DNA of 64,000 bases from Flavobacteriales bacterium. Lineage in GTDB: Bacteria; Bacteroidota; Bacteroidia; Flavobacteriales; Flavobacteriaceae. Numbering within the stretch: the first letter of the stretch is position 1; each line of letters opens with the position of its first letter. The translations under genes were made by a program, and so were the position numbers. This document shows positions 24,652 through 27,516 of the stretch, piece after piece. Under the pieces are notes generated by a model that saw only the letters and a program-made list of their open reading frames with translations, ran no database searches and was not told the DNA's origin. The stretch lies in contig JALWTX010000022.1 of NCBI GenBank assembly GCA_026993355.1, positions 124,001-188,000 of the forward strand. The letters run 5' to 3'.

Positions 24652-24673
24652 TCAAGCTTTTTAAAACCAACCT
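24640..24673. terminator. Bidirectional terminator built from the ends of two convergent genes
   Basis: AGGTTGGTTT (24640-24649) pairs with AAACCAACCT (24664-24673), a perfect 10-bp stem with a 14-base loop. The left arm encodes the end of the ABC ATPase and the right arm encodes Gly-Trp-Phe at the end of PAS protein 1. Only 9 bases separate the two stops. A T-rich run follows on the plus strand. Confidence 0.7.
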
Positions 24674-25260
24674 TTCTTTTTCTTTTTAACAACAGCATCC
24701 TCATCAATTTCAAAATATTGCAAAGCTTTCTTTTCAGTTACACCGGCAATAGCCAATACAAACTCATTAAAATCCATATTTTTTTCTTCCAAAAAGCCTT
24801 CAAAATATTTTTTGGCTGCTTCAACACCGGCATTATTTTCAATTTCTTTTAAGACCTCAAACAATTTGGTAATTTTTGCCACTGCAGGTTCCGGAAGCAT
24901 TTTGCCTTCTATTAGCCAACCAACATTTTCACCAGCCTCATTATAGCGACGCGAAATTTTGGCAAAACTCCAGTAGCACGAACCATCTTTATTTACACCT
25001 TTAAAAATAAAATAAAAACTATCTTTTGTTTTGGCCAACTCTTCAAATGTATCCAAATGAATACGAGGCATAGAAGGATCCACGATAAAAGCAAAATCTT
25101 TCATAATTATATCCGATATTTTAAAACCGGTTACTTCGCTAAAATAATTATTGACATAAACTATATGATTCTCCTTATCAAGTTTTATTTTCAATTTTCT
25201 GGTTACATCCAATTGAATGCATCTTTTGTTTTGTTTCATAATGTGAGTGTTTACCGTCAT
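24661..25260 (-). CDS. Standalone PAS-domain protein, array member 1 (most diverged)
   Basis: This 199-aa soluble protein has one PAS domain (about residues 20-128): NHIVYVNNYFSEVTGF, KDGSCYWSFAKISRR. A helical tail follows (FEVLKEIENNAGVEAAKKYF, then EEKNMDFNEFVLAI). It is paralogous to the three genes upstream on the same strand. The flavin-pocket motif RHPDMP, present in members 3 and 4, reads VDPSMP here, so FAD binding is doubtful. The C-terminus ends KKKKKGWF, a polybasic run with terminal aromatics. There is no kinase, cyclase or chemoreceptor output domain. The ATG at 25260 leaves an 18-base gap to the previous stop; an ATG at 25239 is also possible. Probably the last gene of the array transcript. 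Confidence 0.88.
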   Translation of the reverse strand: MTVNTHIMKQNKRCIQLDVTRKLKIKLDKENHIVYVNNYFSEVTGFKISDIIMKDFAFIVDPSMPRIHLDTFEELAKTKDSFYFIFKGVNKDGSCYWSFAKISRRYNEAGENVGWLIEGKMLPEPAVAKITKLFEVLKEIENNAGVEAAKKYFEGFLEEKNMDFNEFVLAIAGVTEKKALQYFEIDEDAVVKKKKKGWF

Positions 25261-25278
25261 CTTATTAATATTTTAATG

Positions 25279-25905
25279 TTACCAAAAACGTCTTTTCTTT
25301 TTCTTCTTTATAAATTTTAAAATGTCATCAATGTTCATATCCGTCGGATCCACAGAAAACAATTCTTTATCAGAAACTTCCGAAGTCATATAATCGCGCA
25401 GATTTTTTTCGCCCCCAAATTTTTCTACAATATATTTTTCATAACTGGTACCTTTATCTTCCCAGTAACCTTTAAGATATTTTTTAGCCACATCTTCTCC
25501 ACCGCCACTGTTTTCAATGCCATATAATACTTCATATAACTTTTCAAATTCATTTTTAATATCGGTTGGCAAATATTTGCGTCTGATATAAACTGCCGTA
25601 TCTCTATTTTCATTTATTTTAGAACGTATATCGGCAATGGTCCAAAAATATTCACCATTTTTAGTCACGTTTTTACTCACCAAATACAAATCTTTCCCAT
25701 TTCTTATGGCTTTCCATGCCAAATCCAAAATAGTTTTGGACATTTTCGGATGTTGGATCATTTCATGACTTTGACCTATCAAATCTGTTTCTGAGAAACC
25801 GGTTACATCGGCATAAGCTTTATTAACATATTTGATATTACCATCTCTCGACAATTTACAAACAAGGGTAATATCCGGTTCTAATCCTTTTTCTACTTCA
25901 AACAT
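25279..25905 (-). CDS. Standalone PAS-domain protein, array member 2
   Basis: This 208-aa protein has a single Aer-like PAS domain (residues 10-125): GNIKYVNKAYADVTGF, DLIGQSHEMIQHPKMS, KNGEYFWTIADIRSK. It carries the same tail as its paralogues (YEVLYGIENSGGGEDVAKKY, then WEDKGTSYEKYIV, LRDYMTSEVSD). The Aer signature RHPD is QHPK here, so two of the three polar FAD-contact positions known from E. coli Aer have changed. The protein ends IKKKKKRRFW, again polybasic with terminal aromatics. The ATG at 25905 lies 8 bases after the stop of member 3, so these two are certainly cotranscribed. No membrane segment or signal peptide. Confidence 0.9.
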   Translation of the reverse strand: MFEVEKGLEPDITLVCKLSRDGNIKYVNKAYADVTGFSETDLIGQSHEMIQHPKMSKTILDLAWKAIRNGKDLYLVSKNVTKNGEYFWTIADIRSKINENRDTAVYIRRKYLPTDIKNEFEKLYEVLYGIENSGGGEDVAKKYLKGYWEDKGTSYEKYIVEKFGGEKNLRDYMTSEVSDKELFSVDPTDMNIDDILKFIKKKKKRRFW

Positions 25906-25913
25906 ATTCCTTC

Positions 25914-26564
25914 TTATTTAAACAATTTACCTAATATCCCTTTCTTTTTAGTACTCTGCTTAATAGCATCTTCTGCCGACACGGCGTTGCCCAAAAATTT
26001 ATCATCACTTATTTCTGACGACATATAATCATGCAGTTGTTCTTTATTTAAATTCATGATATTAAAAATAAACTCATCATATGTCATCCCCATATCTTCT
26101 AACATAGCTGTAAAATAAGCTTCGGATGCATCCATTCCGGCTGTTTTTTCAATTTCTAAAATATTGTGATATATTTTCTCAATTTTATTTTTAGCATCTT
26201 CCGGTATGGCTTTTCGCCGGGCATAATGCGTTATATTTCCTTCAGCATCAATTTTAGATTTGAAATCTGCTATCACCCAATAATAACGACCATCTTTTGC
26301 CAAGTTTTTAACAAAAGCATAAGTCGGTTTTACTTTATTCAAATTATCCCATAACAATTTGAAAATTAATTTGGGCGTATCGGGGTGCCTCAAAATATTA
26401 TGTGGCTGCCCCATCAATTCCCATTCCTTGTAGCCCGACACTTCCATAAAGTAATCATTGGCATATTCAATGATTCCTTTTTTATCGGTTTTACTCATGA
26501 TGGTTTTATAGGGATTCAATTTAATTTCCTCATTCTTAGGTATTGGCCTAATTATTCTTTTCAT
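25914..26564 (-). CDS. Standalone Aer-type PAS protein, array member 3
   Basis: This 216-aa protein matches the N-terminal FAD-binding PAS domain of the aerotaxis receptor Aer closely. TIMSKTDKKGIIEYANDYF, GYKEWELMGQPHNILRHPDTP and KDGRYYWVIADFK align with the Aer blocks, including Arg-His-x-Asp of the flavin pocket, so redox sensing through FAD is a reasonable prediction. After the PAS domain (20-135) comes the array's shared helical tail (IYHNILEIEKTAGMDASEAY, EDMGMTYDEFI, LHDYMSSEISDD) and a basic end KKKGILGKLFK. No HAMP, transmembrane or methyl-accepting region is present, and no chemotaxis gene is in the window. A 22-base hairpin lies just upstream of the ATG, with its own promoter-like box beyond it. 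Confidence 0.92.
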   Translation of the reverse strand: MKRIIRPIPKNEEIKLNPYKTIMSKTDKKGIIEYANDYFMEVSGYKEWELMGQPHNILRHPDTPKLIFKLLWDNLNKVKPTYAFVKNLAKDGRYYWVIADFKSKIDAEGNITHYARRKAIPEDAKNKIEKIYHNILEIEKTAGMDASEAYFTAMLEDMGMTYDEFIFNIMNLNKEQLHDYMSSEISDDKFLGNAVSAEDAIKQSTKKKGILGKLFK

Positions 26565-26577
26565 ATATTAGTTATCT

Positions 26578-26599
26578 TTATTTTAGCTGGCTAAAATAA
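26578..26599. promoter_or_regulatory. Hairpin or operator in the leader of PAS gene 3
   Basis: TTATTTTAGC-TG-GCTAAAATAA has perfect 10-bp arms and a 2-base centre, 13 bases upstream of the member 3 ATG. There is no T tract after it on the minus strand, so it looks like a protein-binding site or an RNA hairpin controlling translation rather than a terminator. Confidence 0.5.
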
Positions 26600-26640
26600 G
26601 ACATTTTTTAGCAATAATTTGTCTTTTTTGTTACAAAAAT

Positions 26641-26648
26641 CAAAAATA
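26641..26648 (-). promoter_or_regulatory. Promoter -7 box for PAS genes 3-1
   Basis: TATTTTTG on the minus strand, about 76 bases upstream of the member 3 ATG. It would give members 3, 2 and 1 a promoter separate from member 4, with the 26578-26599 hairpin in the leader. Confidence 0.4.
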
Positions 26649-26703
26649 TAATTTATTTTAACAAAATATCTTTTTCTGTAAGTTATATTTATTTTGATAT
26701 CAA

Positions 26704-27366
26704 TTATTTAAATATTTTTTTTAAAAAAGTTTTTTTTCTTCTCTTACTTTCTTTGATAGCTAATTCGGGCGTATAATATTTATCATTGGCTTGTAAATCT
26801 TCATCTTTTATTTGGGCTTGCATATAATCATTTAATTGTTTTTCATTCAACTCAAATAAATCTAAAATAAATGCATCATAGGTTTTGCCTATATCTTCTA
26901 AATAACCGTTTAAATAGGCTTGTGAACCTGAAATTCCTGTTTTCCGTTCTATTTCGATAAGTTTTAAATAAAAAACTTCAAAGAAATTTTTTACTTTTTT
27001 AGGGATCGCTTTCCGGCGTGAATAGAAACTCTCTATTTCACCAAACTCATTATATTTGATTTTAAAATCTGTAACCACCCAATAATACTTTCCTGTTTTG
27101 GTTAAATTCTTTACAATAGCATGAATATTTTTACCCGCAAATAAACGGTCCCACAATAATTTAAACACAACCTTAGGCATATCCGGATGCCGAATAACAT
27201 TGTGCGGCTGCCCCATCAATTCCCATTCCTTGTATTCCGAAATTTCCATAAAATAATCATTCGCATAGGTAATAATCCCTTTTCGATCAGTTTTACTCAT
27301 AATGGTTTTAAAAGGATTCAATTCAATTTCAATATCTACCGGAACAGGTCTTTTAATTATTTTCAT
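26704..27366 (-). CDS. Standalone Aer-type PAS protein, array member 4
   Basis: This 220-aa protein is closest to member 3 and keeps the full Aer flavin motif (GQPHNVIRHPDMPKVVFKLLW). Other PAS blocks are ELNPFKTIMSKTDRKGIITY, YANDYFMEISEYKEW and KTGKYYWVVTDFK. The tail YLKLIEIERKTGISGSQAY, LEDIGKTYDAFI and LNDYMQAQIKDED matches the other members. It ends RRKKTFLKKIFK, basic and amphipathic. I start at the ATG at 27366; the open frame extends 15 codons upstream but starts from intergenic DNA and would cross the conserved N-terminus MKIIKRPVPV, which parallels MKRIIRPIPK of member 3. It is the first gene of the array, 139 bases before member 3, and divergent from mutB. Confidence 0.92.
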   Translation of the reverse strand: MKIIKRPVPVDIEIELNPFKTIMSKTDRKGIITYANDYFMEISEYKEWELMGQPHNVIRHPDMPKVVFKLLWDRLFAGKNIHAIVKNLTKTGKYYWVVTDFKIKYNEFGEIESFYSRRKAIPKKVKNFFEVFYLKLIEIERKTGISGSQAYLNGYLEDIGKTYDAFILDLFELNEKQLNDYMQAQIKDEDLQANDKYYTPELAIKESKRRKKTFLKKIFK

Positions 27367-27389
27367 GACATTAATACTAATTTTTTCTA

Positions 27390-27397
27390 CAAAATTA
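27390..27397 (-). promoter_or_regulatory. Promoter -7 box of PAS gene 4
   Basis: TAATTTTG on the minus strand, 23 bases upstream of the ATG at 27366. Confidence 0.5.
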
Positions 27398-27516
27398 AAT
27401 AAAAAACGCAATTATTTATGAAATATATAAAAAATACATCTTTAAATTTATAAGTGTTCAAGTTTAGTTTATTTTCGTTCATTTGCGGCATTCTACAAGT
27501 CAAAATGTTTTTTACT

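Follow-up and report, generated by a model that had tools for sequence, protein, structure and literature searches.

In Campylobacter jejuni, the bipartite energy-taxis receptor CetA-CetB contains CetB as its FAD sensor subunit, and HAMP is the proposed docking site for CetB on CetA (PMC2628428). CetC, a paralogue of CetB, can substitute for CetB (PMC3558505). Both proteins, like CetB2 of M. gryphiswaldense, consist of a stand-alone Aer-like PAS domain with a short helical tail, and CetB systems include several paralogues. One of these, CetB5 of M. gryphiswaldense, is without a CetA of its own and adjoins a gene for a CheY paralogue, its host being chemotactic (PMC12442639). FAD binding has been measured for CetB2, in which FAD is contacted by H54, N55, R58, F67, W71, N86 and R117, with F67, W71 and N86 required for function (PMC12442639). 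The FAD contacts of E. coli Aer are H53, R57, W70, N85 and R115 (PMC9668731).

Here, we compare with these systems an array of PAS genes in a window of 64,000 nucleotides, the whole stretch of DNA analysed, from a flavobacterial genome (2.2 Mb, 99% complete). The four genes, named A to D in order of transcription, lie in tandem on the minus strand at 24661-27366:

26704..27366, minus strand: gene A, PAS plus tail, 220 aa; FAD pocket complete; C-terminus RRKKTFLKKIFK (open reading frame and Pfam)
26707..26742, minus strand: gene A, basic/aromatic C-terminal peptide
25914..26564, minus strand: gene B, PAS plus tail, 216 aa; FAD pocket complete; C-terminus KKKGILGKLFK; aligns with a CetB-type protein along its full length
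26214..26402, minus strand: gene B, stretch with FAD-contact residues H55, N56, R59, F68, W72, N87 and R117, by alignment to the Aer and CetB2 contacts
26055..26201, minus strand: gene B, tail block 1, a helical hairpin and a short helix, the part in common with CetB
25917..25952, minus strand: gene B, basic/aromatic C-terminal peptide TKKKGILGKLFK, MinD-like
25279..25905, minus strand: gene C, PAS plus tail, 208 aa; FAD pocket partly lost; near-invariant C-terminus KKKKKRRFW
25282..25317, minus strand: gene C, basic/aromatic C-terminal peptide; last 16 residues 91% identical in 9 orthologues
24661..25260, minus strand: gene D, PAS plus tail, 199 aa; FAD pocket lost; C-terminus KKKKKGWF
24664..24699, minus strand: gene D, basic/aromatic C-terminal peptide

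A sequence-only reading of the window had described these four tandem genes as encoding PAS domains with a helical tail and no kinase, cyclase, HAMP or chemoreceptor part. Open reading frames and alignment confirm this arrangement, and in Pfam and NCBIfam searches one PAS domain per protein (best Pfam PAS E-values 1.6e-7 to 7e-10) was the sole domain matched; kinase, cyclase, HAMP and MCP parts were all absent. The intergenic gaps measure 139 bp (A-B), 8 bp (B-C) and 18 bp (C-D); since B has its own 139-bp gap upstream, A is not necessarily co-expressed with B-C-D. Immediately upstream of B, at 26578-26599, lies a 22-bp palindrome, TTATTTTAGCCAGCTAAAATAA (as read on the minus strand), which is not conserved in relatives, bar possibly a similar one in G009. 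Gene A starts at the ATG at 27366, in agreement with the end coordinate of the sequence-only reading and common to its orthologues, which support it over a TTG at 27411 (26704-27411, minus strand; 15 more residues) that automatic annotation may wrongly choose.

The array is not a chance arrangement, as the same four genes recur in the same order and with conserved synteny across the genus, at dN/dS ratios of 0.03-0.13 (one comparison having dS near saturation). The neighbouring genes show genus-level synteny only, with no conserved adjacent partner gene that would hint at a target. Two further paralogues are encoded in the source genome, on contigs C19 and C5. The C5 paralogue (L008:7816-8433) is a sixth, strongly diverged copy that has lost most FAD contacts, and with them the flavin pocket, and is flanked by ddl- and dprA-like genes.

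The helical tail and its CetB-type relatives

The tail shared by A-D is real and alignable, and it corresponds to the helical C-terminal region of CetB-type proteins. Gene B aligns over its full length with a CetB-type protein whose gene adjoins an MCP gene (47% identity, E=2e-53), the array tails match CetB-type tails by profile comparison (99% probability, E=2.6e-18), and the CetB-type tail pattern xxLYxxLLxxEKxxGMxASxxxLxxxLExKGxSYDEFI is found in the array proteins. The label "CetB-type" refers to MCP adjacency together with the published description (PMC2628428, PMC12442639) rather than to the C. jejuni CetB sequence itself. The array proteins fall within the format of this type, stand-alone with a single Aer-like PAS domain and about 160-235 residues. 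A subset of 162-182 residues stops directly after the GMxASxxxLxxxLExKGxSYDEFI block and adjoins an MCP gene in the fashion of CetA-CetB; in one gene neighbouring such a short member, both MCP and HAMP were confirmed. The second tail block, LxDYMxxEIxD, is restricted among the aligned sequences to the genus of the window and its near kin.

The tail is not a Pfam family, giving only scattered, single, weak Pfam matches, and its comparison with solved folds returned nothing in the PDB below E=6. No fusion to an output domain was seen in a tail search that covered 296 genomes of Bacteroidota and, from other phyla, 15 that carry the family. The open frames with tail matches were all shorter than 290 residues, except for one weak match in a 475-residue frame (G578, E=4e-5). 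A tail-only match in G036 is ProA and was rejected as chance. The statement that no system of this composition was known is not supported: stand-alone proteins with PAS plus tail are of the CetB kind, one of which is matched by B from end to end. The literature offered nothing relevant on CetB-like proteins of Bacteroidetes that are stand-alone or orphan, which is weak evidence of novelty with subscription papers mostly outside reach.

Flavin pockets and lineages of the four proteins

The assignment of the PAS domains to the Aer type is upheld, and in the AlphaFold model of gene B (pLDDT 92) the PAS domain matches E. coli Aer (8dik) with a TM of 0.92 by target. While Aer unites transmembrane, HAMP and MCP parts in one protein, the array proteins have none of these. 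In the alignment, A, B and the C19 paralogue keep all FAD-contact residues of both Aer and CetB2, and so do nearly all relatives, with C, D and the C5 paralogue as exceptions. In C, the phosphate-binding arginine equivalent to Aer R57 is replaced by Q and the N54 equivalent by E, with the arginine-to-Q change and the loss of N54 seen in all orthologues tested; the H, W, N and R contacts are kept, with N in place of H in one orthologue. In D, the equivalents of H53, R57, W70, N85 and R115 are all replaced in all orthologues tested, and the residues found there differ among orthologues (F, L or M at H53; E, D, K, N or L at W70). Redox sensing through FAD, proposed earlier for the whole array, is a likely role of A and B, in which every contact is kept; C has lost the pocket in part and D wholly.

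In a tree of 89 proteins, A, B, C and D form one clade each, with 98-100% bootstrap. The related MAGs L051 and L052 carry a three-gene form, AB-C-D, so that C and D predate the species split. Within the less diverged array pair found in the MAG G011, dN/dS is 0.04-0.06. Judged by clades and substitution ratios, A-D are four old, stable lineages under purifying selection with no recent expansion, shared by the genus, and not the ongoing diversification that had been suggested for the locus. The class-specific pocket states of C and D in all orthologues, taken with the low dN/dS, argue that both are working proteins. G011 holds two complete A-B-C-D arrays (L044 and L045, on contigs C115 and C116) with a dS of about 0.7-0.8 between them, reflecting either duplication of the locus or two species mixed in the bin.

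A candidate sensor outside chemotaxis

The window had been noted to contain no chemotaxis gene, and the MCP signalling domain is in fact absent throughout the source genome, with no MCP gene adjacent to the array. MCP was likewise absent in 22 of 22 family-bearing Bacteroidota genomes tested (the source genome and 21 others), and CheW in 13 of 13 family-bearing genomes tested; the source genome is without CheW. In the 89-protein tree, the MCP-paired proteins, from Campylobacterota, Holophagaceae and other Bacteroidota, form one separate clade (100/100) that includes no window proteins. With neither an MCP partner nor a place in this clade, the array is not part of the CetA-CetB receptor system, although its sensing step is CetB-like. 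It differs from CetB also in its extra C-terminal segment with a basic/aromatic end and in its four genes, which include the pocket-changed C and the pocket-dead D. Whereas CetB5 resides in a chemotactic bacterium, the genome of the array has neither MCP nor CheW.

A conserved basic/hydrophobic C-terminal peptide is present in the array proteins, and in A, B and many Flavobacterium relatives it takes forms such as KKKGLFGKLFK or EEERGFFSRLFGR. Extended members of the family mostly end in a basic/aromatic peptide, often MinD-like. The E. coli MinD C-terminus, EEEKKGFLKRLFGG, binds the membrane, and the conserved array C-termini are similar to it; the likeness extends over A, B, the C19 paralogue and the Flavobacterium relatives, yet MinD is otherwise unrelated, and a short motif of this kind could be convergent or carry another meaning. 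Hydrophobic moments against shuffled sequences fell at percentiles of 0.05-0.97 and lent no support to a membrane anchor, but the test is without power, as MinD itself lies at 0.34-0.62. An MCP gene adjoins 1 of 108 members with a C-terminal extension versus 19 of 37 without (Fisher p=1e-12, a value inflated by kinship); outside Flavobacteriales and their near kin, the counts are 1/25 versus 19/33 (p=1.5e-5). This exclusion is one-way only, since 18 short members, among them the nos-cluster group and some from Capnocytophaga, have neither an adjacent MCP nor an extension. We infer that the basic/aromatic C-termini may anchor the proteins at the membrane, the alternative being a docking peptide for a common partner; the earlier description of the proteins as soluble is doubtful.

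We propose, at a probability of about 45%, that A-D are CetB-like stand-alone PAS proteins, comprising FAD sensors (A and B) and pocket-changed paralogues, with a role outside chemotaxis and perhaps a membrane-linked target. A and B would bind FAD, and their conformation would follow the cellular redox state. C and D, which could not report flavin redox likewise, would act as fixed partners of A and B in hetero-oligomers, whose subunits would meet at the PAS face and at the helical tail resembling that of CetB. By its basic/aromatic C-termini the complex would be kept at the membrane, close to the respiratory chain, a positioning role that CetA may play for CetB, and the signal would pass by protein contact to a target other than an MCP. 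Since the bacterium has no such receptor and only two of the four proteins clearly have an intact flavin pocket, the sensors must report to another receiver. Hetero-oligomers had been raised as a possibility in the sequence-only reading, which as a whole is partly supported: a set that may work together agrees with our data, four equivalent sensors do not.

Alternatively, A-D could be independent sensors, A and B of redox through FAD and C and D of other ligands, with no mixed complex. Pocket states that are fixed within classes and different between them would suit this explanation, as would the single, unlinked members usual outside the array and the gap between A and B, which makes separate expression possible. 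The tight packing of B-C-D in an order conserved across the genus speaks against it, however, as does the variability of the D pocket, which looks free of ligand constraint, and we regard such independence as somewhat unlikely.

It is unlikely, too, that the four proteins are add-on regulators docking on histidine kinases and feeding a redox signal into a two-component system. PAS domains commonly feed kinases, and candidate receivers exist among the 11 HATPase_c matches in the genome, some of which are in kinase-like open reading frames. Against this, no conserved kinase neighbours the array or its relatives in Bacteroidota, and HAMP, the docking partner of CetB, is weak or absent in several family-bearing genomes; the single-contig relative G035 has no HAMP match.

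Still less probable is a role as input of energy taxis for gliding motility, in place of a chemotaxis pathway. Capnocytophaga and many Flavobacterium glide, and GldL is present in 22/22 family-bearing Bacteroidota genomes tested; however, GldL belongs to the type 9 secretion motor, its co-occurrence, counted in family-bearing genomes only, is uninformative, and no conserved gld/spr neighbour was seen. Blue-light (LOV) photoreception, one form of the light sensing suggested earlier, has a negligible chance even though the PAS domains weakly resemble YtvA and LOV kinases, as the photoactive-cysteine segment reads PHNxxRHPD in A and B and has other non-cysteine residues in C and D, and Aer is the closest structure. 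The loss of the flavin pocket in D might point to a decaying duplication without function, but with purifying selection on all four genes, an ordered set that is conserved and near-invariant C-termini, we give this hardly any credence.

Wider occurrence of the family

In a scan of named genomes, PAS-plus-tail proteins were found in Flavobacterium, Capnocytophaga, Tenacibaculum, Filimonas, many Campylobacterota and Holophagaceae. Among larger groups, Campylobacterota, Flavobacteriaceae and Holophagaceae carry the family widely. CetB was characterized as one of the two halves of a chemotaxis receptor, and a large branch of its family occurs in chemotaxis-free bacteria, where the sensor half would be used alone. 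Being used there without a chemotaxis system, its flavin redox signal must have another receiver in flavobacteria. Generalizing the proposal made for the array, we tentatively suggest, at odds well below even, a receptor-free CetB redox sensor in flavobacteria without chemotaxis and in some of the Campylobacterota. FAD-bearing PAS subunits would join pocket-dead ones in a hetero-oligomer tethered to the membrane, which would convey the respiratory state to a new, non-MCP output via the CetB tail. The family-bearing flavobacteria include the easily grown Flavobacterium and Capnocytophaga, and the array allows a natural comparison between flavin-competent subunits and the pocket-dead ones retained with them across a genus.

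MCP-paired CetB-type genes also occur in other Bacteroidota families (L174-L179, L189), and both forms are therefore present in the phylum. A PAS-plus-tail subgroup of mostly 174 residues with a MEEIHRFY-like end (L085, L092, L099, L105, L109, L127) adjoins genes for NosL-like proteins and ABC-2 transporters in Sulfurimonas and its kin; a link of this subgroup to nitrous oxide reduction is suggested. In Sulfurimonas and Helicobacteraceae, an extended PAS-plus-tail gene with a MKKLFS-like end (L054-L062) adjoins a divergent gene that weakly matches the chemoreceptor zinc-binding (CZB) domain.
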